Virus record (IMG/VR): IMGVR_UViG_3300026519_000016 | Location: 1-50,531 of that record | From: a virus | Strand: one strand, 5' to 3' | Length of the DNA stretch: 50,531 bases | Shown here: positions 1-35,705 of the stretch, in pieces | Layout of the letters: each line of letters starts with the position of its first letter | How positions within the stretch are numbered: position 1 is the stretch's first letter | The notes under the pieces: generated by a model | The model's database searches: none | Seen by the model: the letters and a program-made list of their open reading frames with translations, nothing else | What the model was told of the DNA's origin: nothing | Translations under genes and position numbers: made by a program

Positions 1-199
1 CCTTTCGGACTCGTTTCAGTTATTTCCTGACACGTCGAACAAGTTTGGGTGGTGTACGACTCGTTGACTTCAACAAACATGCATCGCATCGCTTTCGATT
101 TATAATCGAGCATGTTCTTTAGCTGATGCCAACCTGCGTCTAATACGGATTTAGCCATCTTAGTCTTTGCTAATTTAGACGCACTAACGTTGCCACTTC
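1..199 (-). pseudogene. tnpB: TnpB C-terminal fragment (zinc-ribbon start)
   Basis: The minus strand reads a TnpB-like stretch ending VNESYTTQTCSTCQEITE at the window edge. It is nearly the same as the tnpB fragment at 3432-3641. The CSTC pair is the first half of the TnpB four-cysteine zinc ribbon. There is no start codon or N-terminal domain, and the fragment is fused to the IS left-end hairpin. It is a decayed, non-autonomous copy and probably inactive. The second cysteine pair would lie upstream of base 1. Confidence 0.75.
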
Positions 200-248
200 C
201 AAATTCAGCAAGCTGAATTTGGAAGTGGCATTCCGGCAACTTGGATAA
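1..248 (-). mobile_element. IS200/IS605-family remnant (left end plus tnpB tail), cut by the window edge
   Basis: A left end is seen on the minus strand: GGATAA at 243-248 (TTATCC read outward), then the conserved AAGTTGCCGGAAT, then a perfect hairpin arm pair built on CCACTTCCAAATTCAGC at about 202-236. The same left end occurs at 3204, 9472, 22788, 29985 and 49915. Directly inside the hairpin the sequence runs into the C-terminal part of a tnpB. tnpA and the N-terminal half of tnpB are therefore deleted. The right end lies outside the window. Confidence 0.8.
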
Positions 249-293
249 TAACACTATGCACCAACCATTGTCAAGTTCGGTTTCCGCCAACGT

Positions 294-301
294 GATAAAT
301 A
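294..301 (+). promoter_or_regulatory. Late-promoter-like octamer GATAAATA
   Basis: GATAAATA differs from the T4 late consensus TATAAATA by its first base. It lies 32 nt before the ATG of the tail-fibre-like gene at 334. The same G variant recurs before the genes at 14545 (minus), 31712 and 47376, which supports a real late element. Confidence 0.5.
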
Positions 302-333
302 GAACAACGGTACACGAATAATGGAGAACCCGA

Positions 334-3144: not shown

Positions 3145-3340
3145 TATTTTGTTATATTGCATTACTTAAAATAAATAGTTGACGTTCACTAAATACAATG
3201 ATATTATCCAAGTTATCGGAATACCACCACCAAATCAGTAAGCTGAATTTGGTGGTGGATGGATAGGCACCATATTAAATACACAATGATTAAGTGAATT
3301 TAATTCTTGACTTGACATTTAACTATGTTATTATCCGTAT

Positions 3341-11909: not shown

Positions 11910-12364
11910 ATTTCTACAAATTCCATACTAGCAACCCTTAATTTTGTAATATTGGTAAGTGTATAATTTCGACTGGTAAACGCATTAACTACGCTTTGGT
12001 ATTGTTCATACATTTCTTCCACTTCTATTAACAGTCCCATTATCAACAAGTAGGAGGGCTCATTGCAAATATACTTACCAATATCACGCTCGGTAAGTTG
12101 TCTTGAATAATTTTCCTTATATGACTTAAATAGCGATCCTTTTGTTTTTTCTACTTCTAATTTAAAAAATTTAACAAGTGCATTTAATTCTACTTTACGC
12201 TGATCATAATAATGTAACCATGCTGAATTTTCACTGTTTGATATTTCTAATTTCTTTCCCGTAATTTTTAATCTTTCATTAGCTTCCAGTAATGCTTCGG
12301 CATACACCTCTAATATATCGGGTAAGTTACAAAAATCAGTTCCAAGTTTAGCGATCTTACTCAT
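11906..12364 (-). CDS. uvsY: UvsY-like recombination mediator
   Basis: This 152-residue protein (T4 UvsY has 137) probably helps UvsX displace gp32 on single-stranded DNA. The C-terminal part, ERDIGKYICNEPSYLL through a long helix to SRNYTLTNITKLR, fits the UvsY pattern of a DI.KYI segment followed by helices and a 'SR.y.i.ni..wr' end. The middle has a WLHYYDQRK segment like the L.YY.G region. The start at 12364 is preferred because it follows the upstream stop by 4 bp and has AAGAAG upstream; an ATG at 12418 would overlap by 50 bp. The uvsW neighbour supports the call. Confidence 0.65.
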   Translation of the reverse strand: MSKIAKLGTDFCNLPDILEVYAEALLEANERLKITGKKLEISNSENSAWLHYYDQRKVELNALVKFFKLEVEKTKGSLFKSYKENYSRQLTERDIGKYICNEPSYLLIMGLLIEVEEMYEQYQSVVNAFTSRNYTLTNITKLRVASMEFVEI

Positions 12365-12368
12365 TTTA

Positions 12369-12863
12369 TTAATTCTTCTTAGTTGTTGTATTATCCATAA
12401 GCGCGAGTTTTTGTTCATTCGTTAACTCGGATAAATCAAAATCCATTAAGGCAACGGAAGGTGTTATCATCTGTTCATCCGACTGGCCGTATGCTTCATT
12501 GTATATCTTATATAAAAAATCAACAATTTCAGCAACGTCGCCCTTTTCTATTAACGAAAGCGGTAAATGCACGAAAACTTCAGCTTGAAAGGATTTAGCG
12601 TTCTCCTCCGTTATCACAACATCTTCGCCGTTGTGTTTAAGTCTGGCACCTAGCGTTTGTGATACAATGCCGGAAAGGTAAATTAAATCATCTATTATAT
12701 TTATTTCATCCCATACAATAGTACCATTTTGACATAATGGATCAACCGTATTGAGAAATTTGCTTATATGTAACATTATTGGTGCAATAGAGTCCAATAT
12801 TTCGTATGTTTGCTTAATATAGCTGGAATCACGCTCGTACAGTGCGTCTGCCAAGTTATTCAT
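12369..12863 (-). CDS. Unknown acidic helical protein
   Basis: This 164-residue protein is mostly helical by composition and acidic. The central VWDEINIIDDLIYLSGIVSQ and the LSELTNEQKLALMDNTTTKK end look well defined, but I recognise no family. It lies between primase and uvsY on one strand with short spacers (19 and 4 bp). That points to a role in replication or recombination, or simply co-expression. Confidence 0.6.
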   Translation of the reverse strand: MNNLADALYERDSSYIKQTYEILDSIAPIMLHISKFLNTVDPLCQNGTIVWDEINIIDDLIYLSGIVSQTLGARLKHNGEDVVITEENAKSFQAEVFVHLPLSLIEKGDVAEIVDFLYKIYNEAYGQSDEQMITPSVALMDFDLSELTNEQKLALMDNTTTKKN

Positions 12864-12882
12864 TTTTTATATCCTCTAATTA

Positions 12883-13896
12883 TTATTTACAATATAGCTT
12901 AATTGCACATTCTGCCGCAATGCCTGCTTTCGCATTGTCTATTATTGATTTTATTGTATATAGTTTACCATATTTCATTACAGCATCATTCATATCCTTA
13001 CAGTTTGAGCCTATGTTGGGGGTGGATATTTTCCATCCAAGGGATAATGCTTGTTGCGCCGCTAAATGTCCATCCCCCGTTTTATCAGGAATGTATATTT
13101 TTTCACGTGACGACTTATTTAACCATTGCGCTTGCGCCTCCGTTATTATATTACCAAATGTAGCAATGCCATCTATTGACATCGCGTCGAACCATCCTTC
13201 AACGATAAGCAGCGGTGCAGTTGTGTGTGCAAATAATAAATCAAAACCATATAAAATGCGGTTTTTCTCTGTACTTGGTGTCTCGTATTTTTTAGGGGCA
13301 TCATATAATGCCCGTCCAGTATAAAATATTAATTTATTATCTTTAAATATTGGGATAATTAGTCGTCTCCCCCACTTTTTAAGCAAAACATTTGTTGAAT
13401 TATGTGCCAACAAAAATGGATAGTCTTCAGGTTGTATGCCGCGTTCATCTATAAGATATCGTGTTGCAGTAATAGCAAGTTGATCATCGGGTGGTGCATC
13501 ACTTAATCTATAGAAAATATCTGGCTGTTTAAGTTCAATTGGTTCAATATTTTTTTGTTTAGGTAATGTGCGGGGTGAGCTTGGAACAATAGAACCAAGC
13601 TTTCTTATATTATCTAATATCAAGTCTTTCCACGCGGCGGACGGAATTCCAAACGCATTTAAAATACTTTCCATATTTTTTGACATGATAGCCGTTTTTG
13701 TCGGTTCATAACCACCCTTTGCACTACAATTCCAACATTTATAGATTACGGTATCGTCCTTAAATAAAAATGCACCACGTAATCCCTTTCGTGTATGATC
13801 ATTACATACGGCGCAGCGCACAGCGCACCACCCACTGCTAGAGGGCTGGCTGGTTTTTACATATTGTTTAATTATTTCTTCTAAACATTCTGACAT
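12883..13896 (-). CDS. 61: DnaG-type DNA primase (gp61-like)
   Basis: This 337-residue primase would make RNA primers for lagging-strand synthesis with a DnaB-type helicase (not in this window). An N-terminal zinc ribbon is visible: C28-x2-C31 and C54-x2-C57, with an extra C24. The TOPRIM core has EGWFDAM with E233, and an acidic PDKTGDGHLA at 270-279. T4 gp61 is 342 residues, so the length fits. No separate helicase-like C-terminal domain is present. The gene ends 19 bp before the next gene on the strand. Confidence 0.9.
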   Translation of the reverse strand: MSECLEEIIKQYVKTSQPSSSGWCAVRCAVCNDHTRKGLRGAFLFKDDTVIYKCWNCSAKGGYEPTKTAIMSKNMESILNAFGIPSAAWKDLILDNIRKLGSIVPSSPRTLPKQKNIEPIELKQPDIFYRLSDAPPDDQLAITATRYLIDERGIQPEDYPFLLAHNSTNVLLKKWGRRLIIPIFKDNKLIFYTGRALYDAPKKYETPSTEKNRILYGFDLLFAHTTAPLLIVEGWFDAMSIDGIATFGNIITEAQAQWLNKSSREKIYIPDKTGDGHLAAQQALSLGWKISTPNIGSNCKDMNDAVMKYGKLYTIKSIIDNAKAGIAAECAIKLYCK

Positions 13897-13933
13897 TAGA
13901 ACATAATATCATATGCGCTGCCATAGCACAATA

Positions 13934-14545
13934 TTATTTATCTGCTTTTTTTGCCTGCTTTTCCTTAATCTTAATCATTTTAATTAGGCGGCGCATGATT
14001 TCATTCGTCTGAAACCAAAAATCTTCACCGCGTAGCATCCGTGTCAGTTCATCTTCCGTCAAAAATGGCACACAATATTTCCGTGCAATAGATTCATACC
14101 ATTTATTGGTTGATGTAAGTGCTAATACTTGTTCATTTCCCTTACCATAAGTTTCCCCAGAATAATTGTGCAACATCAAAATGGTATCGTCATGTGTAAT
14201 AAATTCATCTGCTGCCAGAAATATTAAGGCTCCCATTGAGCAGGCTTCGCCTTCTAAACTACAAATAATATGGGCTTCTGATATGTTCATTGAATTGATT
14301 ATTTGAATACCAGATATTAGATCGCCACCTGGTGAATTTATATGAATATGTACAACATCATCTTGACTAGCTGTTTGGATTTTATATATCATATCAACAT
14401 ATGCATTAGCCTCTATTATTTCACCAGAAAGATAAAAATGGTTAATTATTTGCGTTTGCACCAACGGCTGTTCATAATGTTGACATTGCTGTGCTGCGGG
14501 TACTACAGGATACATTACTTCATCATCACGGTTGGTCGTATTCAT
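13934..14545 (-). CDS. clpP: ClpP-like serine protease
   Basis: This 203-residue protein belongs to the ClpP/crotonase fold and would form protease rings. The NSPGGDLISGI oxyanion segment (70-80), nucleophile S103 in EACSMGALIF and H126 in LMLHNYSG are visible. The third catalytic residue is less clear: where ClpP has the aspartate of 'DTERD' this protein reads MLRGED. The ATG at 14545 was chosen for its GAGG upstream; an earlier in-frame ATG at 14611 would cross the late-type promoter. Phage ClpP may act in prohead maturation or host-protein turnover; its role here is unknown. Confidence 0.88.
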   Translation of the reverse strand: MNTTNRDDEVMYPVVPAAQQCQHYEQPLVQTQIINHFYLSGEIIEANAYVDMIYKIQTASQDDVVHIHINSPGGDLISGIQIINSMNISEAHIICSLEGEACSMGALIFLAADEFITHDDTILMLHNYSGETYGKGNEQVLALTSTNKWYESIARKYCVPFLTEDELTRMLRGEDFWFQTNEIMRRLIKMIKIKEKQAKKADK

Positions 14546-14574
14546 ATAAATCCTCACGTAATATATTATAACTG

Positions 14575-14582
14575 TATTTATC
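14575..14582 (-). promoter_or_regulatory. Late-promoter-like octamer GATAAATA
   Basis: The minus strand reads GATAAATA, 29 nt before the clpP ATG and just after the terminator at 14610-14635. It suggests that clpP and primase can also be expressed late. Confidence 0.45.
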
Positions 14583-14609
14583 GCATCGGAAATATAACAT
14601 ATTAAAACC

Positions 14610-14635
14610 AAAAGTGGACATTAATGGCCACTTTT
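14610..14635 (-). terminator. Hairpin terminator after folA
   Basis: AAAAGTGG and CCACTTTT pair around an inner CATTAATG palindrome. A T-rich tail follows on both strands. It lies between the folA stop (14659) and clpP. Confidence 0.7.
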
Positions 14636-14658
14636 TTGTTGATTATTGGGTATTCGTG

Positions 14659-15216
14659 CTATTTGCGCTGATATGTCACGAAATATAATTCCGATGTCTC
14701 GGTGCAGTTAACAATAGAAAACGATTTATTAATCACATTAATTGGAAAATATTTGTCACATTCATATGTCTTATCCTTTATGATAGTCATATGAATGAAC
14801 TTAGTCCAAGTTAATGCCTCTATAAACATTTGTTCACCGCCGATTACAAACACCGATCTCGTATCATTAATATCCAGCGTTTCAATGGCTCCGCGAATTG
14901 AAGGAACCACTGTTGCCCCCTCTGCATCATAGTGCTTATCACTAGTCACTACAAACGATTTCCTATTCGGCAATATATCAACAAATCTGGGAATATTTGG
15001 CGGACTACCAGTCGGGAGTATTCTATTTTTCCGCATTTGCAACATATTTTCATGCGTAATTCGACCCATTATACAAATGTTATTGGTTGTTATTGTTTTA
15101 AAATGTTGCATGTCCTCTGGTATATTCCATGGGATATTTCCATTTTTACCAAATCCACCTACTGCATCAACAGCAACTATAATATTTAACAAGGGCATTG
15201 TTGTTTTAGTGGGCAC
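14659..15216 (-). CDS. folA: Dihydrofolate reductase
   Basis: This 185-residue protein reduces dihydrofolate with NADPH, regenerating the cofactor spent by thymidylate synthase, which is encoded just upstream. Visible motifs are NIIVAVDAVGGFGKNGNIPW, the acidic IPEDMQHFK with D35 at the substrate-binding position, IMGRITHENM and VIGGEQMF. T4 encodes the same pair (frd and td). The start is an ATG 3 bp after the upstream gene's stop. A terminator follows. Confidence 0.93.
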   Translation of the reverse strand: MPTKTTMPLLNIIVAVDAVGGFGKNGNIPWNIPEDMQHFKTITTNNICIMGRITHENMLQMRKNRILPTGSPPNIPRFVDILPNRKSFVVTSDKHYDAEGATVVPSIRGAIETLDINDTRSVFVIGGEQMFIEALTWTKFIHMTIIKDKTYECDKYFPINVINKSFSIVNCTETSELYFVTYQRK

Positions 15217-15219
15217 AGT

Positions 15220-15546
15220 TTATCCTTTAATAGTATATCGTATAGAAGAAGTATTTAAACAATGGGTCTGTACATATGTAATATCTATGTACGTTATGCC
15301 AAGTGCAAGTGTTTCCCTTTTGTTATTGCGTTTATCGCAGATAACATTCCATTGCTCGAGTTTGTTTTCTTCCGCATGTGATAATAGTGATTCTTCCGCA
15401 AGTTCCATAATAATGGAACGTGCCGTACTGTCGGTGGACAATTCATTACTAAATGCATGTATGATATGATCTATCTCAGATATTATAGAATTGTATAATG
15501 TCTTACTGTTAATATTTTTTGTTGTTATTTTATAAGGTGCATTCAT
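15220..15546 (-). CDS. Unknown protein upstream of folA
   Basis: This 108-residue protein ends 3 bp before folA, so they are probably translated together. The C-terminal half, LEQWNVICDKRNN then LGITYIDITYVQTHCLNTSS, looks conserved and has two cysteines but no known signature. GGAAAAAG lies before the ATG. A decayed tnpB scar lies upstream, between this gene and thyA. No function is assigned. Confidence 0.6.
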   Translation of the reverse strand: MNAPYKITTKNINSKTLYNSIISEIDHIIHAFSNELSTDSTARSIIMELAEESLLSHAEENKLEQWNVICDKRNNKRETLALGITYIDITYVQTHCLNTSSIRYTIKG

Positions 15547-15674
15547 TTTCTTTTTCCGTTGTTAAAATAGTAGCAAAATACAACAAGTGTTTTTTGTTAC
15601 TGATTATTCACAATGTCAACGGGCTTGCCAAGTTGTTCTTTGGACTAACGGCTCTCTTTTGTGTATTTTTGGTC

Positions 15675-15760
15675 TCATTGCAACGCATGGTGACCATACT
15701 CTTTTAAATTATTTGCTGCATTAAAATCATGATCCATATTAACACCACAATCACAAATAT
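15675..15760 (-). pseudogene. tnpB: tnpB C-terminal scar after thyA
   Basis: Read on the minus strand, the DNA right after the thyA stop encodes NICDCGVNMDHDFNAANNLK and ends at a TGA (15675-15677). The CDCG pair and the D.D.NAAN segment are the end of a TnpB zinc ribbon and RuvC-III region. It is more diverged than the copies at 1 and 3432, so it comes from another or older insertion. The rest of 15547-15767 shows no gene. Confidence 0.75.
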
Positions 15761-15769
15761 TTTGTGATT
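15749..15769 (-). terminator. Hairpin at the thyA stop
   Basis: AATCACAAA and TTTGTGATT pair perfectly around TAT and overlap the thyA stop codon. It may act as a weak terminator; there is no clear U-tract. Confidence 0.35.
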
Positions 15770-16619
15770 AAACACTAAACGGATATTTTATAGCTGAATG
15801 ATGATTATATCCGATTAATTCAAAATCATCAAGCGTTACCCATGTTTCTAAATCTTCAAGTGTTTTAATGTCTGGGTTTATTTTTAAAGTAGGCAGCGCA
15901 TATGGTTCTCTATTTATTTGAGTAGTTTTTAATATTTCAAGTTGATCTTCATAAATATGCACGTTGACTATTTTATGAAATGCCTTTCCTGCTTTAAGTC
16001 CAGTGATTTGTGCCATGACCATCAACAGCCAACCCACCTGTACTTGGTTGAAACCCATTCCTAAACAAAGATCAACCGAGCGCATTGTGCTTGTTAAATA
16101 TAAGGTTTCTTCTAAAATACTAAATGTATGCGTATGCATACATGCTGGGAGACACATTCGATTAATTTCGGCAGGATTCCAAAATGTTAATATTTCCCTA
16201 CGATCATCGTGCCCTGCGCTTAGATCATCTACTATTTTCCGTAATTGATCGAAAGGTTTACCATCGCGGTCCATAAACCCCCTACCTTGCACACCATAGG
16301 CAACCCCCATATCATCAACGCCTTTGCGATAAGGATTGTTCAGCCAGTCTGCGTTGTCGTTTGCGTTAGCATTCCAAGTGTTACAACCGAGATCGCGGAA
16401 TTGCGAGGCGCTAGTATATCCACGTAAATATCCCAACATTTCTGCAATAGCTGGTTTCCAAAATATCTTTTTGGTTGTTAAAATAGGTAACTTACTTTCG
16501 CGGAGGTCGTAAGTGAAATTAGCGTCTATTACGGTTAAACAGCGCTTTCCGGTTCGTGTATTTTTTACCCAAACCCCATCCGCAATTACGCGCTTGCATA
16601 AATCAATATATTCTTTCAT
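15768..16619 (-). CDS. thyA: Thymidylate synthase (ThyA type)
   Basis: This 283-residue protein converts dUMP to dTMP using methylene-tetrahydrofolate. The nucleophile is C160 in [20 protein letters not shown] gives the phosphate-binding arginines, and [12 protein letters not shown] and [19 protein letters not shown] are the usual C-terminal blocks. The length is normal (264 in E. coli, 286 in T4 td) and no intron is present, unlike T4 td. Its ATG overlaps the upstream stop (TAATG). folA lies about 550 bp downstream on the same strand. An IS scar begins at its stop codon. Confidence 0.95.
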
Positions 16620-16831
16620 TATGATGTTATCCCATATAATTCGGATTCTTTAACCCACTTAGTCCATGAACCATTGGTGTTCGTATCAGCTGGTGTGATC
16701 TCAATTTTACTATCGATTTTGCCACTCCGAAGTTTTCGTTCTGCTCGCCTACCAGTTTTGACAATTTCGATAGAATCGAACAAATAAGTTTTTGTGTCAG
16801 ACACAGGCATACCCCTTATATTTAGTTGCAT
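16619..16831 (-). CDS. Unknown small protein coupled to thyA
   Basis: This 70-residue protein starts at the ATG at 16831, preferred over a GTG at 16843 because GGAAG lies 8 nt upstream. The sequence [20 protein letters not shown] and [12 protein letters not shown] looks conserved and compact, but no family is recognised. The stop overlaps the thyA ATG. It lies between phoH and thyA in one operon. Confidence 0.6.
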
Positions 16832-16840
16832 TATTGCTTC

Positions 16841-16863
16841 CACTTACTACACTATAGTAAGTG
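16841..16863. terminator. Inverted repeat between phoH and the thyA unit
   Basis: CACTTACTA and TAGTAAGTG pair around CACTA. No T-run follows on the minus strand, so partial termination or an RNA processing site is possible. Confidence 0.4.
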
Positions 16864-16882
16864 AAAATGACTAATATCGCAA

Positions 16883-17638
16883 CTATATTTCTTCGGAGGC
16901 GATGATCCACGATTTTACAAATTCACTTCTAACAATATCATGTTTAGTGAATTCAATTAAATCAAATTCGCGCATATTATTAAATATTTGAAGTGCATCC
17001 GCCATTCCTGATACGCCATTCCGCTTGCCATCTAAGTCAGTTTGACGAATATCACCTGTAAATAAAACACGTGAATTATTCCCTATTCTGGTCATGATTG
17101 AATCAATTTCATGCAAGTTCATGTTTTCGCCTTCATCCACTACGACTATTGCGTTATCCCAAGTCAGTCCACGAATAAAACTAGTAGTTGTGAAATTTAT
17201 TAGACCTGCTTCCTTCATATCACGGTAGGTTGATGCACGCCCAACAAGTTCCCACATAATATCATGATACGGTAACTCATATTGTGCAGTTTTTTCTTCA
17301 AGTGTTCCGGGCAAGAAGCCGATTTCCCGCGTAGGAACGGCGGACCGTACAATTATAATTTTTTGTTGATGTTTATTCAGTACTTCATTGATAGCTAGTG
17401 ATAACGCGAGGAATGTCTTTCCCGTACCAGCGCTTCCATGTGCGCAAATGTGTTGGTTATTATACCAAGAATGAAACATATCATCCTGTGCATCGTTCAA
17501 CGGTTGTATTTTTTTAATATCATGAACACTCCAATGCTTCTTCTTCGTGTGTTCTTCCATTGCTCTCCCATTTTGAATTAAGGCTTGTGATAATACTTCT
17601 ATTTCCTCTTGACAACCATTGCGACGTTTTTTAGACAT
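16883..17638 (-). CDS. phoH: PhoH-like ATPase
   Basis: This 251-residue protein has a PhoH/RhaB-type P-loop domain: Walker A GSAGTGKT at 68-75, then RSAVPTREIGFLPGT, Walker B NAIVVVDEGENM, and a GDIRQTDL sensor motif, all typical of PhoH. PhoH proteins are RNA/DNA-dependent ATPases, some with helicase or RNase partners, and are widespread in environmental phages; their role in infection is unsettled. An N-terminal Lys/Arg-rich start precedes the domain. A TTGACA promoter lies upstream. Confidence 0.93.
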   Translation of the reverse strand: MSKKRRNGCQEEIEVLSQALIQNGRAMEEHTKKKHWSVHDIKKIQPLNDAQDDMFHSWYNNQHICAHGSAGTGKTFLALSLAINEVLNKHQQKIIIVRSAVPTREIGFLPGTLEEKTAQYELPYHDIMWELVGRASTYRDMKEAGLINFTTTSFIRGLTWDNAIVVVDEGENMNLHEIDSIMTRIGNNSRVLFTGDIRQTDLDGKRNGVSGMADALQIFNNMREFDLIEFTKHDIVRSEFVKSWIIASEEI

Positions 17639-17723
17639 ATTGATATATTCTCCAGTTTCATATTTTCAAGCGGTCTAATAGTACTTATACCACTATTGAA
17701 CTTTTCACTAACTACTTGAAAAT

Positions 17724-17750
17724 ATTGTAAAAAATAATAGTTTCTGTCAA
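17724..17750 (-). promoter_or_regulatory. Possible sigma70 promoter for phoH
   Basis: The minus strand has TTGACA (17745-17750) and TACAAT (17724-17729), with a short 15-nt spacer. It lies between the spoVR stop and phoH. An inverted repeat AATAGT...ACTATT near 17680-17700 lies downstream. Confidence 0.4.
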
Positions 17751-17756
17751 TTTTCG

Positions 17757-19298
17757 CTATTCTAGTTCATCATCCACCATAATATGTATTTCAACATTAT
17801 TGTTTTCGGTTATATTGAAAATAACTTGCACAACCCCCTCATCATCTATCGATTCTAACTCTACCGAATATCCCCAAAGAAATGAAATACAACGTAAGGT
17901 ATCAACGGCTGATTCTTTGTCTAAGGGGCGACCATTAACCATTCGGTGTTGTAATTTGATTCCTCGCGTCCCCCAGCGGTCAACATTTACAACTTGAATA
18001 TCGGGAACACGATAACCAATATTATACTGTTTAGACAGCGTATCGCGCACCTGCACATATCCTTGTTTATTGTGTATTCCGCTGATAAGGTATTTACTAT
18101 CGAGCGCATCGTCATGTATGGCAAACATTCTAAACTCACGTATGATTGCAGGTGATAGAAATTGTTTAACAAAACTTTCATCCTTAAAATTAGTTATCGC
18201 CCATTTAATATTATCCAGCCATTTGCCGTTTCCTACCCAATCTTGACCGTCAAACCATTCGCGGTCTTCGTCGGTTGGATTCATTGAGATGCGTTCAATA
18301 TCTTTATACATAGCAAACCCAAGTGCATATACATTTATGCCACTAAATCCCCTGTCATTAAATCCTAGCTGCTTAACAACGCCGGTATGTGATGTATAAA
18401 ATTCTAACATTGCGCCATCATCAAGAACACCTTGATCATATAAATCATGTACCAGTTTATAGTGAAAAAATGTGGCGCACCCTTCATTCATTAAGCTTGT
18501 ATTTTTTTGGGGGAAGAAATATTGTGCGATATTTCGTACAATACGAATGACTTCACGTTTCCAGTCTTCTAATCTTGGTGCATTTTGTTCGATGAAATGT
18601 AATATATTTTCCTGTGGTTGCTTGGGGAAGGTAGGCGTATTATCTAGTTCTATTTTGGGATCGTTGGGGATCGTGTTCCAAATTACATTTAGTTGGGAAT
18701 GAATATAATCATCGCGTTCTTTCCGTAACTTTTCTTCCTTTGCGGGGGACAGCGGTGCGGGATGGTTATATTTGTCCACACCATAATCTTGTAATGCATG
18801 TGCAGCGTCCAATACTTCTTCAACCGCTGCCACGCCATGGATATCTTCACACTCTTGAATAAACTTTTTGGCAAAGTCTAAGTAATTAATTATGCTGTTC
18901 GGGTGCGTCCACTGTTTAAATAGATAATTATTTTTAAAGAAATGATTATGTCCGAAACTTGCATGTGCCATGACCAATGTCTGCATCAACATTGTATTTT
19001 CTTCCATTAGATAAGCAATACACGGATCGGAGTTGATCACAATTTCATATGCCAATCCCATTCGCCCACGTTTATACTCGTCCAACTCGCGCACAAATTG
19101 TTGCCCAAACGACCAATGTGAATAATATAATGGTAACCCAGCACTTGAATATGCATCAATCATTTGTTCAGAGGAAATCACTTCTAGTTGATTTGGATAA
19201 TAATCTAAACCATATTTCTCATCAGCGATTTGCTTAATTAACATATACACTTCGTCAATTTTATCAAAATCCCAATCTTCACCCGACGATATTTTCAT
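17757..19298 (-). CDS. spoVR: SpoVR family protein
   Basis: This 513-residue protein has almost the same length as E. coli YcgB (510), a SpoVR family member. Characteristic blocks are seen: GLPLYYSHWSFGQQF near residue 55, YEIVINSDPCIAYLMEENT near 85, then MAHASFGHNHFFKNN and NEGCATFFHY. The family's biochemical role is unknown; it is linked to sporulation cortex formation in Bacillus. In bacteria it usually travels with prkA and yeaH homologues, as here. The ATG overlaps the yeaH stop by 4 bp. The conserved His residues are kept, so the protein looks functional. Confidence 0.93.
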   Translation of the reverse strand: MKISSGEDWDFDKIDEVYMLIKQIADEKYGLDYYPNQLEVISSEQMIDAYSSAGLPLYYSHWSFGQQFVRELDEYKRGRMGLAYEIVINSDPCIAYLMEENTMLMQTLVMAHASFGHNHFFKNNYLFKQWTHPNSIINYLDFAKKFIQECEDIHGVAAVEEVLDAAHALQDYGVDKYNHPAPLSPAKEEKLRKERDDYIHSQLNVIWNTIPNDPKIELDNTPTFPKQPQENILHFIEQNAPRLEDWKREVIRIVRNIAQYFFPQKNTSLMNEGCATFFHYKLVHDLYDQGVLDDGAMLEFYTSHTGVVKQLGFNDRGFSGINVYALGFAMYKDIERISMNPTDEDREWFDGQDWVGNGKWLDNIKWAITNFKDESFVKQFLSPAIIREFRMFAIHDDALDSKYLISGIHNKQGYVQVRDTLSKQYNIGYRVPDIQVVNVDRWGTRGIKLQHRMVNGRPLDKESAVDTLRCISFLWGYSVELESIDDEGVVQVIFNITENNNVEIHIMVDDELE

Positions 19299-20584
19299 GT
19301 TCCACCCCGTTTTTCAAATAAAGTTCTAAACACTGGATATATTTCGGTAACATCCCGGACTATTCCCATTTCAAAGTTTTTATGATCGTGTGCTATTTCA
19401 TCATACGCAGGCCATAAATCACTAAAACCACCTGAACGATGTCGATCTACTTCGATGTAAGCATAATACTGCGATTTAGGTAATATATCAGAACGTAATA
19501 TTTCTTGCGCAACTTGGTTGTCCGAAAACCAATTATCACCATCGGATATTTGACAACCAAATATATTCCACTGCGTTAATGGGTATCTATCCTTGATCAC
19601 CGATGACATCAGTTCCAATGCGGAGGATACCAATGTACCACCTGTTTCTTTTGAATGAAAAAAAGTATCTTCATCAACTTCCGAGGCGCGTGTATGATGT
19701 CTAATCCAGACAATATCCACTAGTTCATAATTATGATGTAAAAATAATAACATTATCATAAAGAAACGTTTTGCCATTTCTTTTTCCCATTCCCCCATGC
19801 TTCCACTGACATCCATTATTCCGAACATGACCGCCTGTGTTGTTGGAATTGGCACCTTTTCCCATCTATTATATCGTAAATCCATGTCGTCTAAAAACGG
19901 GATTGCCCGTATCTTACGTTTTAGTGCATTGATTTCATCATTCAATTCATTAACGCGCTCTTGTGTGTCTTCGGTTAATGTGATGGAGGCCAGTTCTTCA
20001 AGTAGGCGCTTTAACTTCTTTTTCTTGGGGGTAAGCAGCCCAAACCGTCTTCCTTTAGCATGCTTCAACGACTGTAATATGTTTAACCTACTTGGATTCC
20101 CATCTACTGAAAATCCTGCTCTTCGATTTTCAAATTCGTATACTTTACTAATATCTTTCTTAATCATGTCCGGGAGTTCAAGGTCTTCAAAAAAGATATC
20201 TAAATATTCTTCTTTGGATAAGATAAATTCAAAGGTGTCAACCTGATCCATGTCTTCATTTGAACCTTCCCGACCACCAGCGCCACCACCATCTGATGGC
20301 GGACGATCATGACGATCACCTTGATTAAATTCCTTATTACCGGGTACCACCCAATCCTTAATACCGCCGTCTTTCGAATGATTAAATGTTGGCTGTTCTA
20401 ATCCTTTTCCAGGAATTTTAATTTTTTTAGATTTTCCGGTAATAACATCACCAACTTTACCATCGCGGACCGCCTCCCGGACTGCCTCCCGGACTTGATT
20501 TTTTACCCGCTTAATAAACTTTTGACGATTGTTCGCGCTTTTCCCGCCACCCGCTAATCTTCTGTCAATTATGATGTGAGCCAT
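19295..20584 (-). CDS. yeaH: YeaH/YhbH family (DUF444) von Willebrand A-like protein
   Basis: At 429 residues it matches E. coli YeaH (427). The opening IIDRRLAGGGKSANNRQKF is typical of the family. A basic, Gly-rich disordered N-terminal third is followed by a von Willebrand A-like domain with metal-site motif DVSGSMG (D258, S260, S262) and a later ETGGTLVSSAL that could supply the MIDAS threonine. In bacteria YeaH is co-transcribed with the kinase YeaG and is thought to be its partner. Here prkA lies just upstream and spoVR overlaps downstream. AGGAA precedes the ATG. Confidence 0.93.
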   Translation of the reverse strand: MAHIIIDRRLAGGGKSANNRQKFIKRVKNQVREAVREAVRDGKVGDVITGKSKKIKIPGKGLEQPTFNHSKDGGIKDWVVPGNKEFNQGDRHDRPPSDGGGAGGREGSNEDMDQVDTFEFILSKEEYLDIFFEDLELPDMIKKDISKVYEFENRRAGFSVDGNPSRLNILQSLKHAKGRRFGLLTPKKKKLKRLLEELASITLTEDTQERVNELNDEINALKRKIRAIPFLDDMDLRYNRWEKVPIPTTQAVMFGIMDVSGSMGEWEKEMAKRFFMIMLLFLHHNYELVDIVWIRHHTRASEVDEDTFFHSKETGGTLVSSALELMSSVIKDRYPLTQWNIFGCQISDGDNWFSDNQVAQEILRSDILPKSQYYAYIEVDRHRSGGFSDLWPAYDEIAHDHKNFEMGIVRDVTEIYPVFRTLFEKRGGT

Positions 20585-20623
20585 TTGAATTCCTACAATA
20601 GATTATTCATTTAAGTGTGTTGC

Positions 20624-20664
20624 ACATTGCCACGATATTACGTTCTAAAATATCGTGGCAATGT
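20624..20664 (-). promoter_or_regulatory. Perfect 16-bp hairpin between prkA and yeaH
   Basis: ACATTGCCACGATATT (20624-20639) is perfectly complementary to 20649-20664, with a 9-nt loop. No U-tract follows on the minus strand. It may be an attenuator, an RNA processing site or a stabilising 3' end of the prkA message that sets prkA:yeaH ratios. Confidence 0.55.
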
Positions 20665-20668
20665 TAAC

Positions 20669-22621
20669 TTAGTGGTTTTTGTTATACCGCATCCACCATT
20701 CCACTGCTCGACGCACTTGCTTTTTAGTATAACCCTTTGCCATCATTCGCTCTACAAATTCCGTATGCTTTTCTTCCTCATCCGCTGAACTTTTCGCGGT
20801 GAATGAAATTACTGGAAGAAGGTCTTCAGTATTTGCAAACATTTTCTTTTCAATTACTTCCCTTAGCTTTTGATAAGATTTCCAGTCCGGTGCAATACCT
20901 TTATTATTGGCCTTTGCGCGTAATACAAATCCAACCACTTCATTTCGGAAATCCTTTGCATTCGTTATACCTGCGGGTTGCTCCATTTTTTCCAATTCTG
21001 CATTTAATGATTCCCGATTGAACATACTACCAGTATCGGGATCACGATAGTCCTTATCTTGAATCCAGAAGTCCGCATATTGAATATAACGTTCAAATAA
21101 GTTCTGACCATAATCATGATACGATTCCAAATATGCTTTTTGTAGTTCATCGCCAAGAAATTCATTATACTTTGGTGCTAATACACCCTTAACATATAAC
21201 AACCATTCTTCTTCCTGTTCCAGTGGCAACTGTTCTTCTTGAATTTGCTTAGATAAGATATACATCAAATGGATTGGACTGGCCGCAACTTCGTCAGTGT
21301 CGTAATTATACACTTTAGATAGTATTTTAAAGGCGAATCGTGTGGATGAACCACTCATTCCTTCAGATACACCTGCCATTTCACGATATTCATCAAGTGA
21401 TTTTGCCTGTGGATCGCGATCTTTTAAATTCTTACCATCGTAAATTTCCATTTTAGAAAATAATTTACTATTTTCTGGAACCTTCAAGCGGGTCAACACC
21501 GAAAATTGTGCCATCATTTCAATCGTTCCGGGCGCACATTGTGCATCCGCCAACTCGGATGATGAAATCAATTTTTTATAAATTTCAGCTTCTTCCGTAA
21601 TGCGTAAGCAATATGGAACCTTAACAATATTAACGCGATCAAGAAAGGCTTCATTATTTTTATCGTTTCTAAACGAAGTCCATTCGGACTCATTCGAATG
21701 GGCAAGTATAATACCTTGGAATGGAATAGCACCAAACTGTTCGGTACCGTTATAGTGTCCTTCTTGTGTTGCGGTCAACAAGGGGTGTAACATCTTGATC
21801 GGTGCTTTAAACATTTCAACAAATTCCATAACGCCTTGCGTTGCAACATTTAGTCCACCCATCCAGTTATACGCATCTGGATCGTGCTGCTCATGATCCT
21901 CAAGTGCGCGAATATTAACTTTACCAACCAATGAACTGATATCTTGGTTATTTTCATCGCCCGGTTCTACTTTGGTAATACCTGTTTGTTTCAAAATAGA
22001 AGGCCACACTTTAACCACTTTCATTTTAGAAATATCACCACCTGCTTCTTCCAAGCGTTTCACCGCCCAGGGTGACATTATATATTTGATATAACGCGGT
22101 GGAATATTATATTCTTCGCTTAATTGCTTTGCATCTACTTTAGCATCAAAGATATTCAGTGGTGATTCGTAAATGGGTGAAATTTCCCATTGCTCTGTTT
22201 CCGCGTTGTACGCCTTAAGAACATAGATAGGCACCGCTTCCATGAGTTCCTTTAACCGTTCGGAAATTGAACTTTTACCACCACCAACCGGGCCAAGTAA
22301 ATACAAAATTTGTTTGGACTCTTCCAGTCCCTGTGCGGCATGTCGGAAAAAAGAAGCGATTTGTTCAATTGTATCTTCCATTCCATAAAAGTCGGAAAAG
22401 GATGGATACAATTTAATTTTTCGGTTAGTGAAAATTCGACTTAACCGTTCGTCGTCCCGTGTGTCCACTACTTTAGGTTCACCGATTGCAATCAACATGC
22501 GCTCCGCCGCATTTGCATACATCCGGTTGTCTGTTTTGCAGCCTTCGAGATAATCTTGAATAGACATTTCTTCGGCCTGCTTGACTTCATAACGTTGGTG
22601 GTATTTTTCAAATATGCTCAT
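20669..22621 (-). CDS. prkA: PrkA/YeaG family AAA+ serine kinase
   Basis: At 650 residues it matches E. coli YeaG (644). The N-terminal AAA+ domain has Walker A GPVGGGKSS (110-118), and the conserved blocks EISPIYESPLNIF, NWMGGLNVATQGVMEFVEMF and FQGIILAHSNESEW are seen. The C-terminal third is the kinase-like part. In bacteria the protein is a Ser/Thr kinase linked to stress, nitrogen starvation and sporulation, and ATP-dependent protease activity has also been reported for B. subtilis PrkA. AGGGG precedes the ATG and a TTGACA promoter lies upstream. It appears intact. Confidence 0.94.
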   Translation of the reverse strand: MSIFEKYHQRYEVKQAEEMSIQDYLEGCKTDNRMYANAAERMLIAIGEPKVVDTRDDERLSRIFTNRKIKLYPSFSDFYGMEDTIEQIASFFRHAAQGLEESKQILYLLGPVGGGKSSISERLKELMEAVPIYVLKAYNAETEQWEISPIYESPLNIFDAKVDAKQLSEEYNIPPRYIKYIMSPWAVKRLEEAGGDISKMKVVKVWPSILKQTGITKVEPGDENNQDISSLVGKVNIRALEDHEQHDPDAYNWMGGLNVATQGVMEFVEMFKAPIKMLHPLLTATQEGHYNGTEQFGAIPFQGIILAHSNESEWTSFRNDKNNEAFLDRVNIVKVPYCLRITEEAEIYKKLISSSELADAQCAPGTIEMMAQFSVLTRLKVPENSKLFSKMEIYDGKNLKDRDPQAKSLDEYREMAGVSEGMSGSSTRFAFKILSKVYNYDTDEVAASPIHLMYILSKQIQEEQLPLEQEEEWLLYVKGVLAPKYNEFLGDELQKAYLESYHDYGQNLFERYIQYADFWIQDKDYRDPDTGSMFNRESLNAELEKMEQPAGITNAKDFRNEVVGFVLRAKANNKGIAPDWKSYQKLREVIEKKMFANTEDLLPVISFTAKSSADEEEKHTEFVERMMAKGYTKKQVRRAVEWWMRYNKNH

Positions 22622-22670: not shown

Positions 22671-22699
22671 ACAATATGATATTATGACAACAATGTCAA
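22671..22699 (-). promoter_or_regulatory. Sigma70-type promoter for prkA-yeaH-spoVR
   Basis: The minus strand shows TTGACA (22694-22699), a 17-nt spacer and TATTGT (22671-22676), about 50 nt before the prkA ATG. A minimal IS-derived element begins 22 bp further upstream. Confidence 0.55.
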
Positions 22700-22920: not shown

Positions 22921-23241
22921 ATGAAGATTGACGTTCATGAAAAAGATATAAAAAAAATATACAATGGATTACGATCCAGTGCGAAAAAACGTGGCATCCC
23001 ATTTACACTTACCATGGAAGAAATTCAGCAAATATCTATTCCAATATCTTGCCCCATACTTCACATCCCGTTGGAATATCATCGTGGCGTGGCTCGTGAT
23101 AATAGTATAAGTTTCGATAGGATTGATTCGTCTAAAGGTTATTGCATTACCAATTTACATGTGATTAGCGCGAGGGCAAATAAATTAAAATCGGATGCAA
23201 CTTTTATTGAACTGAGACAACTAGCCGAATATTTTACTTAA
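22921..23241 (+). CDS. Small HNH-like endonuclease
   Basis: This 106-residue protein has the layout of a small phage HNH-like protein: GIPFTLTMEEI, CPILHIPLEY, SISFDRIDSSKGYCITNLHV, then ISARANKLKSDAT. The D-R-I-D...N...N spacing fits the second half of an HNH/treble-clef fold. The usual paired cysteines are incomplete, with only one C in the CPIL segment. It stands alone on the plus strand between minus-strand units, as freestanding mobile endonucleases often do. No RBS is obvious. Confidence 0.55.
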   Translation: MKIDVHEKDIKKIYNGLRSSAKKRGIPFTLTMEEIQQISIPISCPILHIPLEYHRGVARDNSISFDRIDSSKGYCITNLHVISARANKLKSDATFIELRQLAEYFT

Positions 23242-23328: not shown

Positions 23329-24144
23329 TTAGAAGCTATATTGCATCCCACCTGAAATTGTCGTTATTGCTGAACCATTTACCGGAAGCCCAACCAGTTC
23401 AGCCTCGCCGCGCAAACTAAAATACTTAGTCAATCGATATTGCGCTCCTAACGAAAAGACCGGGACTATTCCGGTAATAATACTTACATCCGAACCGTTG
23501 TCGTTAAATACCGCTGTGTTGTTGAAACTATCGGTATATTCACGTTCAACAATATACGTGGAACCTTCATAATTCACGTTTGCGTACCCACCATATGCAA
23601 CGGTTCCATTGATGTCATATTCCAGCGTAACAACCGACTTCGCGCGGGCAACACCTACACCTGAAATGATATCCAGTTTACCTAATGGGACGTATCCATT
23701 GATGCGAACACCATACCCACTTAAGTTTGCTGTGGCTACCGCATTACCTACAATCTCACCTGTTGCGTGCAGTACCACACCAGCATTTGAACCGATATTA
23801 CTTAATCTTCCGCCGCTACTAGCGGACATGGTAGAGTTGACCTTATATGGTTGCATTTTGAACGAAAAAAATTCAATACCAATATATCTATTAAATCGAT
23901 GTCCAATAAATATTTTAGAAAATGCTGAATTGGAAGAATTGTTTACCGAAATACTACCACCCAACATTTGAAACGCAGCATTAATACCTACCGCAGTTTG
24001 ATTCGTTGCTATTTCTTCCCACAAAAGACTTTCCGTGTTGTAGTTTAAGTTTGAACTACCATACATACCACCAATATACAGTTCGGTAGCAAACGTTTGA
24101 CCACTAATGACTAGAAGCAGAATAATACGGATTACGGTTTTCAT
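23329..24144 (-). CDS. Outer-membrane beta-barrel-like protein
   Basis: The start at 24144 gives 271 residues beginning MKTVIRIILLLVISGQTFA, a good signal peptide with cleavage likely before TELYIGG. AAAGGG lies upstream, supporting this start over an in-frame ATG 60 nt earlier. The mature part alternates Gly/aromatic beta strands, contains GVRINGYVPLGKLDIISGVG and LGAQYRLTKYFSLRGEAEL, and ends in the aromatic GMQYSF, as surface-antigen/OmpA-like barrels do. A phage outer-membrane protein could block superinfection or alter the infected cell surface. It lies between the HNH-like gene and gene 52. The exact family is uncertain. Confidence 0.7.
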   Translation of the reverse strand: MKTVIRIILLLVISGQTFATELYIGGMYGSSNLNYNTESLLWEEIATNQTAVGINAAFQMLGGSISVNNSSNSAFSKIFIGHRFNRYIGIEFFSFKMQPYKVNSTMSASSGGRLSNIGSNAGVVLHATGEIVGNAVATANLSGYGVRINGYVPLGKLDIISGVGVARAKSVVTLEYDINGTVAYGGYANVNYEGSTYIVEREYTDSFNNTAVFNDNGSDVSIITGIVPVFSLGAQYRLTKYFSLRGEAELVGLPVNGSAITTISGGMQYSF

Positions 24145-24230
24145 GTTATATGTACCCTTTGCGTTAATGAAAAAACTGACAGTTTCACCAGAAATTACAT
24201 TCAACCATATACAATAGATAAAGTCAATAA

Positions 24231-25550
24231 TTAGGTAACTTTTTTTCCATATTTCCGTAATACTTCTTTTAATTCAACAATATACACTTTACGACGTTTT
24301 GATTCATCCGCTAATAATTCATTATATCCTAACAATATAGCGTTCGCGTTGGCTAATGCCTCTTCTACTTTCTTCTTTTCATTTTCGGTAAAACGATATA
24401 CTGGCAAATCAGCAATATAATCAATATTTTTAATATCAATTTCAGATAAAAACTCTTTTAGTTCAGCACGTGAGTGCATTGTATTAGCGATTCCACCAAT
24501 ATTATATTTTATCGCGGTTAATACATCCAAATATTTTTGAATGTCCATTGTTATCATTGTGACTAGGCGTTCATATCGTGCAACGTACCATTTAAGTCGC
24601 CAATTAGTAAATATTTCAATGGTTTCAATAAAGTTGGTAGATAATACCGTTTTACTATCAAGATTAACCATATTCATATTTTCTGAAATAGCATTAACTA
24701 ACAATAGTCGTTCACGTATCATATCGTCATCCAGTGTGTTCAATACCCCACGTTTATGAATTACATCAATACAAATCGTGGCACCGGATTTATCAATATA
24801 GTCAACAATGACATTATCTTCTATAAGTTTATTCAAAATGTTAATATATTTAGTGAAAGAAATACCGTATGGAATTAACGTAACCGTTACAATTGAACTA
24901 TTCTTTCGTTCAAACTCACCAACAAACAACCATTTCCCTGAAGTATCTTTACCAATTGACCTATGATTTTTAAATACTGGGCTACTGTCTTTTATTGGTT
25001 GTTGTTGTAAATATTTAATTTGTGATTTTATAATATCATCTAACGACCTAGATAATATATTACAAGCAAATCCAATGGCAATCCCTTCGGTTGGATTCAA
25101 AAGAACAATTGGAATCAATGGTAAAAAGTGTAATGGTTCCAAAAGCGTACCATCATAATTATCCTTTAGTGGAATTATTTCAATATCTTTAAAAATAACA
25201 TCATGTGTGAATTTTGATACACTGACACTGGTATATCGACTTGCGCCATAACCGGTGGGATTTAATAACGTGCCAAATGCACCTACACCATCCAGTAGTG
25301 GGATATTGTTGGTATATGGGCCCGTTAACGTGTTGATTGTGGTTTCAGGTGAAGCATGTGGGTGCAATGGCATACACATACCACCTAATGTTGCACTCTT
25401 GTATTTCTTCATATCCTTAGCACACCAGAGTACCCGTCGGCCAGCCGCTTTTAGTCCATCCATAATTGATGGCAATGCCCGATGTTGCAACAGATATTGT
25501 GAATACCGTAGACGTTGTTCTTCGATATATTCGGAGCTTTTATTTTCCAT
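24231..25550 (-). CDS. 52: DNA topoisomerase II medium subunit (gp52)
   Basis: This 439-residue protein matches T4 gp52 in size (442). It is the GyrA/ParC-like breakage-reunion subunit. The opening QYLLQHRALPSIMDGLKAAG matches the 'A..v...RALPd..DGlKp.qRR' motif. The active-site tyrosine is in GASRYTSVSVSKF (near residue 105), and NPTEGIAIGFACN is the isoleucine/Gly-rich block. It overlaps gene 39 by 11 bp, so subunit synthesis is coupled. The C-terminal DNA-wrapping domain of gyrase is absent, as in T4. Confidence 0.93.
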   Translation of the reverse strand: MENKSSEYIEEQRLRYSQYLLQHRALPSIMDGLKAAGRRVLWCAKDMKKYKSATLGGMCMPLHPHASPETTINTLTGPYTNNIPLLDGVGAFGTLLNPTGYGASRYTSVSVSKFTHDVIFKDIEIIPLKDNYDGTLLEPLHFLPLIPIVLLNPTEGIAIGFACNILSRSLDDIIKSQIKYLQQQPIKDSSPVFKNHRSIGKDTSGKWLFVGEFERKNSSIVTVTLIPYGISFTKYINILNKLIEDNVIVDYIDKSGATICIDVIHKRGVLNTLDDDMIRERLLLVNAISENMNMVNLDSKTVLSTNFIETIEIFTNWRLKWYVARYERLVTMITMDIQKYLDVLTAIKYNIGGIANTMHSRAELKEFLSEIDIKNIDYIADLPVYRFTENEKKKVEEALANANAILLGYNELLADESKRRKVYIVELKEVLRKYGKKVT

Positions 25551-27423
25551 GCGTCAACCATTCCTTTCTGGCAGCAATATTAGGACTAAATAATAAGTCT
25601 AATGTATTCTTTAATTTACCATCATCTATTATTGGAACCAAATATTCATCACCTGATAAAATCTGCTTGAAGTCTTCTTGTATCATTGACCCCAATCCCT
25701 TTAAATAACTAATGGTATGATTGTTATACTTGTGTTTTACTTTTTCATATTCATCAGCCGTTGTAAAATGTATTCGTTTTTTGTTTTTCACAGCAACCAC
25801 ATTAGGTGCCATTAACCTATACACGATTGGTTCACTATATTCAGTTGAAAATAATTCTGGCCAAAATTGGTAAAATAAATTAATCAATAACGTGAAAATA
25901 TCATCACCATCAACATCAGCATCCGTGGCAATAATAATTTTTCCAAACCGCAAATCACTCCGCAATGCTTTTTTACCGGGTATTAATCCAATCGACAATA
26001 GTAAATCAGTTACTTTTCCGGCTTTTAACAATTGGGAGGCACTCATGTTATACACATTGTTTATCTTGCCCGTCAATGGAAAACATCCAGTATCATTCGG
26101 ATTTCGGACTTCAATTATTGAACTTGCCGCTGATTTACCTTCGGTTATCAATAGCTTACATTCAAAGCGGTTTTTACTATTGGCATCAGTTAAATTTGGA
26201 ACCTTTTTGCTACGTTTCCCTAGCATTTCCTTTTCTATATTTTTGTTAGTTACATGATTATATCGAAGGTGCGCCCGTTCCAACACGTCATCAAACCATC
26301 CTTTATGCTTACGCGCAAAGGATGACCACATTTCATCAATTAAAACATCCATTTCTTTTTTAAGTGACGGGCCTACAAAACGGGTTTTAGATTGCGAATT
26401 ATATTCTGGATTTATTGTTTTGATGTTGCCAATAATAACAATACCATGTTTAATATCGGCTTTTGATACTTCAATCTTTTGCTTTTTTGCATTAGATGCT
26501 AAATGTGAGGTTACTTTACTATAAAAACTATTAGTGAATTGCACGTTACACAGCCCACCATCAAATAATGGCGATGTATTGACATAAGTAAATATTTTTT
26601 CGTCATCATTCTTATGTTGATTAAATATCACAAAGAATTCAAGTGTTGCGGTTTTCGTTGCGTAATGAAATTTAAAATATTGATCGGTATGCTTCGCAAC
26701 TAATTCTTCTATCCCCTTTTTAAACTGGTACTTGGTGTTATTGTAACTTACCACTATCCCCGGATTTATCATTGCAATTTCTATTGCGCGATGTTGCATT
26801 AATTCGGCGGGAAGCTGTGTCGATAGAAACACATCAGGATCAAGCATAAATGATATCTGTGTGCCAGTTTGCTTCTTACTGTTTTTAGTTATTTTCGGTG
26901 GCATTATATTGCTACAACCACCCATGAATTTTTGTTGATATTCTTTACCATCACGATTAATAGAAATATCAAATGTTGTACTTGAAAAGCAAACACAACT
27001 GGAACCAACGCCATTTTGACCTTGTACCCCCTGTTGTCGATCATCCGTAAAGTTCCGACCGGAACGTAAACTACCAAAAACAACCTCTGGTGTATATGTT
27101 CCAGTTTCGTGTTTACCAATAGGAACACCCCTACCATTGTCCGAAATTGTATATTTACCAGCGGTTGGGTCGGCTATGATTGACAATTTTTTACGTTTTT
27201 TATCAACTTGTGCGAATTCATCAATGGAATTATCAATAATTTCACCAACCGCCTTAAACGCGGCGGGCACGATGGTATATTGTTTGAACTCAATCCCTTC
27301 GGTTAATGATAATACCTCAATGTCAGTCTGTTGGTTTGAACCAAAGTATATTCCTACGCGCAAGCGGACATGATCACGGTCACTTAATACCGTTATGTCG
27401 GTTTCTGTATATCCCTTCGGCAT
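25540..27423 (-). CDS. 39: DNA topoisomerase II large subunit (gp39, single chain)
   Basis: This 627-residue GyrB-like ATPase subunit has the GHKL motifs EIIDNSIDEF, SDNGRGVPIG and GQNGVGSSC. The TOPRIM domain has LLITEGKSA near residue 420 and ATDADVDGDD near 503. In T4 the same activities are split between gp39 and gp60; here one gene carries both. It overlaps gene 52 at its 3' end. A small unknown gene precedes it by 12 bp and shares a TTGACA promoter. Confidence 0.94.
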   Translation of the reverse strand: MPKGYTETDITVLSDRDHVRLRVGIYFGSNQQTDIEVLSLTEGIEFKQYTIVPAAFKAVGEIIDNSIDEFAQVDKKRKKLSIIADPTAGKYTISDNGRGVPIGKHETGTYTPEVVFGSLRSGRNFTDDRQQGVQGQNGVGSSCVCFSSTTFDISINRDGKEYQQKFMGGCSNIMPPKITKNSKKQTGTQISFMLDPDVFLSTQLPAELMQHRAIEIAMINPGIVVSYNNTKYQFKKGIEELVAKHTDQYFKFHYATKTATLEFFVIFNQHKNDDEKIFTYVNTSPLFDGGLCNVQFTNSFYSKVTSHLASNAKKQKIEVSKADIKHGIVIIGNIKTINPEYNSQSKTRFVGPSLKKEMDVLIDEMWSSFARKHKGWFDDVLERAHLRYNHVTNKNIEKEMLGKRSKKVPNLTDANSKNRFECKLLITEGKSAASSIIEVRNPNDTGCFPLTGKINNVYNMSASQLLKAGKVTDLLLSIGLIPGKKALRSDLRFGKIIIATDADVDGDDIFTLLINLFYQFWPELFSTEYSEPIVYRLMAPNVVAVKNKKRIHFTTADEYEKVKHKYNNHTISYLKGLGSMIQEDFKQILSGDEYLVPIIDDGKLKNTLDLLFSPNIAARKEWLTHGK

Positions 27424-35644: not shown

Positions 35645-35654
35645 TTTTCCGTTG

Positions 35655-35662
35655 TATAAATA
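35655..35662 (+). promoter_or_regulatory. T4-type late promoter TATAAATA before portal
   Basis: An exact TATAAATA lies 43 nt before the portal ATG and just upstream of the start of the opposing endonuclease gene. Confidence 0.75.
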
Positions 35663-35705
35663 GCTGTATATATTTATTAAGTTCAATAACATAAAGGTTT
35701 ATAAC

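Follow-up and report, generated by a model that had tools for sequence, protein, structure and literature searches.

A Complete prkA-yeaH-spoVR Module in an XacN1-like Jumbo Myovirus and Its Recurrence in Large Phages

Results and Discussion

The prkA, yeaH and spoVR genes are carried, complete and contiguous, by a jumbo myovirus represented by a linear IMG/VR fragment of 50.5 kb (IMGVR_UViG_3300026519_000016; 50,531 nucleotides, here called the window). On comparative sequence evidence, the trio is shown to be old in this phage lineage, held by purifying selection and inserted between conserved jumbo-phage genes. Here it is tentatively proposed, with slightly less than even confidence, that the three proteins form an early-expressed AAA+/MIDAS stress machine, which would hold starved hosts in a quiescent but viable state during a slow infection.

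The Module and Its Locus

The window has genes for the tail sheath, portal and major capsid proteins, and the capsid protein has its best relatives in the Xanthomonas jumbo phage XacN1 (62%) and then in the Stenotrophomonas phages CM1/RAS14 (58%). The first-pass annotation had called the phage T4-like, a loose label; because the capsid protein is closest to that of XacN1, a jumbo myovirus of the XacN1 group (XacN1/RsoM2USA-like) is the more exact description. The features of the module and its surroundings are as follows.

16883..17638, minus strand: phoH-like ATPase gene, immediate downstream neighbour of spoVR (PF02562; synteny)
17757..19298, minus strand: spoVR/ycgB homologue, 513 aa (PF04293 and PF24755 at full length; NF008737 above cut-off)
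18462..18488, minus strand: SpoVR motif NEGCATFFH (N271, E272, G273, A275 and H279 invariant; alignment)
19295..20584, minus strand: yeaH/DUF444 homologue, 429 aa, vWA/MIDAS protein (PF04285 at full length)
19799..19813, minus strand: YeaH MIDAS motif DVSGS (D258, S260 and S262 invariant in 56 sequences)
20669..22621, minus strand: prkA/yeaG homologue, 650 aa, AAA+ ATPase with PrkA C-terminal domain (PF08298/PF06798 at full length; NF011999)
22271..22294, minus strand: PrkA Walker A motif GPVGGGKS (K116, equivalent to E. coli YeaG K116; alignment)
22671..22699, minus strand: predicted sigma-70-type promoter TTGACA-N17-TATTGT before prkA (comparison across 8 sequences)
22921..23241, plus strand: HNH-type endonuclease gene, separating the module from the outer-membrane gene (phrog_3322, E 3e-29)
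23329..24204, minus strand: predicted outer-membrane beta-barrel-like protein, 291 codons (sequence pattern only)
24231..25550, minus strand: topoisomerase II medium subunit gene, topoM, which with topoL and phoH frames the locus that the window has in common with XacN1 and RAS14
25540..27423, minus strand: topoisomerase II large subunit gene, topoL (family matches)

The three genes (17757-22621) follow the order prkA-yeaH-spoVR on one strand, the same as the bacterial operon, with an 84-bp gap from prkA to yeaH and a 4-bp overlap between yeaH and spoVR. The contiguous, full-length reading of the first-pass annotation is borne out: the minus-strand ORFs are open throughout in the deposited sequence, with no internal stop in any of the three, and the Pfam matches (E values of 1e-19 to 1e-168) cover SpoVR at 1-405/407 plus SpoVR_C, DUF444 at 1-417/418, AAA_PrkA at 1-357/358 and the PrkA C-terminal domain at 2-255/255. 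All three proteins pass NCBIfam equivalog cut-offs. PrkA scores 558.5 and 218.9 bits (PF08298 and PF06798; cut-off 25) and 1134.7 bits against NF011999 (cut-off 576); YeaH scores 501.9 bits (PF04285) and has the MIDAS residues and the vWA fold; SpoVR scores 513.4 (PF04293) and 68.6 bits (PF24755) and has the conserved His and Glu residues. YeaH reaches 209 where the sporulation YhbH equivalog model has a cut-off of 468, and it passes two other PRK05325 equivalog models. The nearest PrkA relatives of the window are from Gamma- and Betaproteobacteria, and the genes do not class as endospore genes.

In XacN1 and RAS14, the topoisomerase pair and phoH enclose a few small opposite-strand genes without the module, while in the window the same frame encloses the HNH endonuclease, the predicted outer-membrane protein and the trio. 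Of the flanks described earlier, phoH is indeed immediately adjacent; the topoisomerase genes are not, the HNH and outer-membrane genes lying in between. The phoH gene directly follows spoVR in all eight closest relatives (L002-L009), and no topoisomerase genes were found within the upstream sequence covered in those loci. This comparison points to a changeable site among core genes at which the module was either acquired or lost.

Other genes of the fragment include a ClpP-like protease gene (13934-14611, minus strand), a few kilobases from that of the AAA+ protein PrkA, and four long HNH/homing-endonuclease-type genes (34007-35692 on the minus strand; 38995-40821, 43766-45418 and 45438-47258 on the plus strand) scattered among the portal, capsid and adjoining structural genes. 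The 23329-24204 protein has a signal-peptide-like start and could alter the host surface; it had no family matches in Pfam, PHROG or NCBIfam.

Recurrence in Viruses

One IMG/VR scan found a PrkA relative encoded in 122 stretches, and 80 of these were retained. Among the distinct viral prkA loci followed by 3.3 kb of sequence or more, yeaH is present in 48/48 and all three genes in 47/48, the lone exception without spoVR being L010, which has enterobacterial-type yeaGH. The gene set is not unique to the window phage. Among the carriers are 600-kb megaphages and contigs in which phage capsid and/or terminase genes are present (363, 342, 323 and 238 kb long), and unnamed PHROG families already exist for each trio gene. 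The repeated capture of the whole trio suggests that it is one portable working unit.

Three candidates were not used as evidence, the first for carriage by phages and the other two for a phage clade. The record of Enterobacter phage LAU1 (L165, MN688132.1) has yeaG-yeaH at 1-3308; it was rejected because these genes open the record and adjoin a prophage, and they are read as host flank. L010 was set aside for its enterobacterial-type yeaGH without spoVR, and L016 because it falls among Betaproteobacteria.

Related gene sets have been recorded before. In the Ralstonia jumbo phage RsoM2USA (XacN1-like, MG752970), SpoVR (ORF28) and PrkA (ORF30) were annotated in 2021 (PMC8504454). As in the window, they lie on one strand, one ORF apart, a gap that would fit yeaH; unlike here, the passages covered of that paper name neither YeaH nor a module. 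In the Thermus phages phiYS40, TMA, phiLo, MN1 and Lalka, genes for PrkA-like, vWA and, by annotation or position, SpoVR-like proteins also adjoin, but these sets are only ~25-30% identical, have the order vWA-SpoVR-PrkA and form a deep separate branch. An absence of Walker A from the Thermus-phage PrkA, suggested by a regular expression, was dropped after alignment revealed the variant GxxGxAKST. The uncultured 600-kb megaphages LR745206, LR756502 and LR756504 have the trio at 42-62% identity in a separate clade (C); in LR756502 spoVR is distant from prkA and yeaH, and in LR756504 the trio is split by other genes and spoVR has an intein. In LR756504 (L163), yeaH and spoVR are separated by two DNA-methyltransferase-like ORFs (14564-16248, plus strand). 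Virus-borne spoVR alone was reported from viromes of the ETNP oxygen-minimum zone and read as a sporulation auxiliary gene (PMC8940887), whereas the modules described here are of proteobacterial type and unlikely to be tied to endospores.

Origin and Selection

The window and L002-L009 form a phage-only clade (clade A) with SH-aLRT support of 100% in the PrkA tree and in the concatenated three-gene tree, which leaves out L005. The stem of this clade measures 0.23-0.34 changes per site, and the clade adjoins the sampled Gamma- and Betaproteobacteria (support of 83 and 94 in the two trees), the bacterial rows being mostly those closest to the window. The trio matches E. coli yeaG-yeaH and ycgB and other proteobacterial prkA-yeaH-spoVR operons in family, in the order and length of the genes and in the key residues; against the nearest bacteria found, PrkA is 65-67%, YeaH 42-49% and SpoVR 49-54% identical. 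Unlike the bacterial operons, the phage copies form their own clade and share a conserved promoter. Further phage clades are placed elsewhere: clade B, many of whose contigs are short and show no phage hallmark gene, lies beside Alphaproteobacteria, and clade C is separate again. Forcing A, B and C together was rejected (AU p 1.1e-5; 33 rows, LG+G4); judging from these trees, at least three phage clades took up the trio separately.

All three genes have omega values of 0.02-0.12 in pairs from clades B and C with unsaturated dS (0.26-0.91), and within clade A the L002 and L003 pair gives 0.03-0.06, at high dS. Comparisons of the window with L002 or L003 are uninformative because dS is saturated, so the case for selection is built on less diverged pairs from other loci. 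The first-pass annotation had named two outcomes that would count against it. Frameshifts are absent from the deposited sequence, and a very recent transfer under relaxed selection does not agree with the long stem and the omega values well below 1; its suggestion that the trio is kept intact because of a benefit gains support from the phage-only clade, low omega, the 47/48 linkage and the conserved promoter. The particular benefits that it put forward, adjusted host physiology or an AAA+ quality-control machine, are candidate roles. Its setting among phage genes, its recurrence and the selection on it class the trio as a candidate phage auxiliary or host-takeover module.

That the trio is passenger DNA, taken from a host operon recently or by accident, or brought in by contamination of the contig, is barely credible. 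Host flanks do occur in phage collections, as with LAU1, which starts at host yeaG, and the enterobacterial set of L010; against this, the module has phage genes on both sides, its GC and GC3 resemble those of the remaining phage sequence, the clade is phage-only, the promoter and the phoH neighbour are conserved, and selection is purifying. Contamination and recent host capture were rejected on these grounds of context, GC, clade and selection.

Conserved Residues and Predicted Structure

The key motifs are intact, as had been read from the sequence: GPVGGGKS in PrkA, DVSGS with the accompanying T and D in YeaH, and H112, H117, NEG and H279 in SpoVR. In E. coli YeaG, mutation of K116 (including K116A), R232 or K426 abolishes complementation (PMC4664914), and these positions align with K116, R238 and K432 of the window PrkA. 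The full MIDAS set of YeaH (D258, S260, S262, T317 and D348) is invariant across 56 sequences, and H61, H112, H117, E272, H279 and H304 of SpoVR across 57. Of the columns invariant in bacteria, the window keeps 295/328 (90%) in PrkA, 94/110 (85%) in YeaH and 160/183 (87%) in SpoVR, which argues for the ancestral client or role.

These residues also bear on the idea that phage subunits are incorporated into the PrkA-YeaH-SpoVR complex of the host and inactivate it, so that the cell stays metabolically active. Mixed rings are conceivable given the PrkA identity of 65-67% to bacterial copies; however, the phage copies have intact active-site residues, on which selection is purifying, and a poison would need one altered subunit only, whereas all three partners are carried, so this explanation is highly improbable.

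The AlphaFold model of YeaH has a confident vWA domain, whose matches include the MIDAS domain of the AAA+ protein MDN1. A solved relative was found for PrkA (9xip, 9xiq and 9xir; 30 chains in 3 entries) and none for SpoVR or YeaH by sequence/profile search. A metalloprotease fold for SpoVR was rejected, as Foldseek against the PDB gave no matches at E <= 0.001 (model pLDDT 83). With neither a Foldseek match nor a solved relative by profile, the idea of a metal site in SpoVR derives from residue conservation. Systems of the MoxR type and MDN1/Rea1 likewise pair an AAA+ ATPase with a vWA/MIDAS protein, although PrkA and YeaH are separate families. An ATPase ring with a MIDAS partner, acting on or with SpoVR, would be the most economical reading.

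Such a machine could instead be dedicated to the phage, remodelling phage or host protein complexes (by folding, disassembly or quality control of large phage proteins, or by passing clients on to the ClpP-like protease of the phage) rather than acting as a starvation brake. The AAA+ and vWA pairing, the ClpP-like protein in the same fragment (13934-14611) and the very large, protein-rich phages among many of the carriers speak for this. On the other side, the invariant bacterial residues are mostly kept, ClpP-like genes are also common among phages that have no PrkA, and no direct link between ClpP and PrkA was found; a remodelling role is somewhat unlikely.

Inteins in SpoVR

The spoVR gene of L005 (clade A; 11304-14051, plus strand) has 916 codons, including an in-frame 408-residue intein with LAGLIDADG motifs, which begins directly after NEG and ends ...VNHN ahead of CATFF (the G273/C274 junction). 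In LR756504, spoVR (16522-18420, plus strand) has a 129-residue mini-intein at the same NEG/C junction. The two inteins are 55% identical across the first 88 residues, and their host phages are in different clades. Such inteins need Cys as the first downstream residue. Directly after NEG, 19/22 of the bacteria sampled have Trp; Cys stands there in the window (C274, 18477-18479), in 6/7 other clade A sequences and in 5/7 of clade C, and may be the footprint of past intein occupancy. Inteins commonly occupy functionally critical sites, and their position thus suggests that NEGxAxxxH is the working centre of SpoVR. A literature search found no mention of an intein and SpoVR in one paper. It is possible, if doubtful, that several unrelated large-phage lineages independently domesticated the trio as a virus-controlled quiescence switch and that the SpoVR NEG site is truly catalytic and a recurrent homing site for inteins.

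Promoter and Expression

The proposed promoter of the module, noted in the first-pass annotation, lies 78 to 50 bases 5' of the prkA start, and the same arrangement recurs in 6/8 compared sequences including the window. L002, L003, L004, L005 and L007 have TTGAC[AT]-17-TATAGT or TACTAT at comparable places, with diverged surroundings. The strict pattern is expected by chance in 0.2-0.7% per sequence, for a combined probability of 4e-14, which is overstated because the sequences are related and were treated as independent. Across the whole window, the pattern occurs 6 times against 3.1 expected, with no clear enrichment, so the promoter appears operon-specific rather than a general phage promoter.

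An early-type promoter would also suit counter-defence, in which the module would dampen the host's toxin-antitoxin or abortive responses, much as YeaG lowers the expression of two toxin-antitoxin modules, mqsRA and dinJ-yafQ, in starved E. coli (PMC4664914). A yeaG missense mutation also swept one T7-selected E. coli population (PMC10044975), but the T7-selected lines had rpoS, waaC and lon-region changes as well, the YeaG effect on toxin-antitoxin modules is transcriptional, and the PADLOC defence-system models gave zero matches to the module at E 0.01, all of which make counter-defence unlikely.

A Possible Starvation Brake in Infected Cells

PrkA was first described as a kinase and subsequently as a protease, and in later work neither activity was seen in vitro (PMC13001217). 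In B. anthracis, PrkA is needed for sporulation and survival of osmotic stress, and its kinase and protease activities are negligible when purified (PMC13001217). The earlier label of stress-kinase module is thus doubtful as to "kinase". In nitrogen-starved E. coli, YeaG and YeaH jointly put a brake on metabolism, and the lag on recovery is longer when YeaG is in excess (PMC10954441). Sporulation, also proposed earlier, is a misleading label for these phages, since their nearest relatives infect non-sporulating Proteobacteria.

In the favoured explanation, the starvation brake, the host polymerase would transcribe the module early, and PrkA would form an ATP-driven AAA+ ring. YeaH, through its MIDAS/vWA domain, would couple this ring to a target, as in other AAA+/vWA pairs, and SpoVR would be a third working part through its invariant NEGxAxxxH/HxxxxH site. 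The trio would in this way reproduce the host starvation brake exerted by YeaGH in E. coli, and the nutrient-poor infected cell would be kept quiescent and viable over the long cycle of a jumbo phage, spared both death and exhaustion. Counted in its favour are the intact genes, 47/48 linkage, clade A, the separate origins, low omega, the equivalents of K116/R232/K426, the promoter and the YeaH fold; counted against it is that the related jumbo phages XacN1 and RAS14 infect without the module at the syntenic site. The disputed biochemistry of the trio and the negative sequence searches for solved relatives of SpoVR and YeaH also weigh against it, and a metabolic brake could hurt phage yield. 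Early expression of the trio would impose or prolong quiescence, which fits large, long-cycle phages in slow-growing hosts; RsoM2USA has a latent period of 270 min (PMC8504454).

Significance

Phage PrkA and SpoVR (RsoM2USA and the Thermus phage records) and viral spoVR are already known; the near-universal co-occurrence of the trio, its several origins, the selection on it, its conserved promoter and the SpoVR inteins are added here. The stress genes prkA, yeaH and spoVR occur widely, and the biochemistry of their products as a set is disputed; phages with and without the trio, XacN1 being a natural relative without it, are small genetic systems in which its effect can be measured. Many of the viral spoVR genes that environmental surveys count under "sporulation" may be part of this trio and unrelated to spores. 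Given its long-ago, independent uptake and the strong selection on it, the trio is likely useful to viruses.
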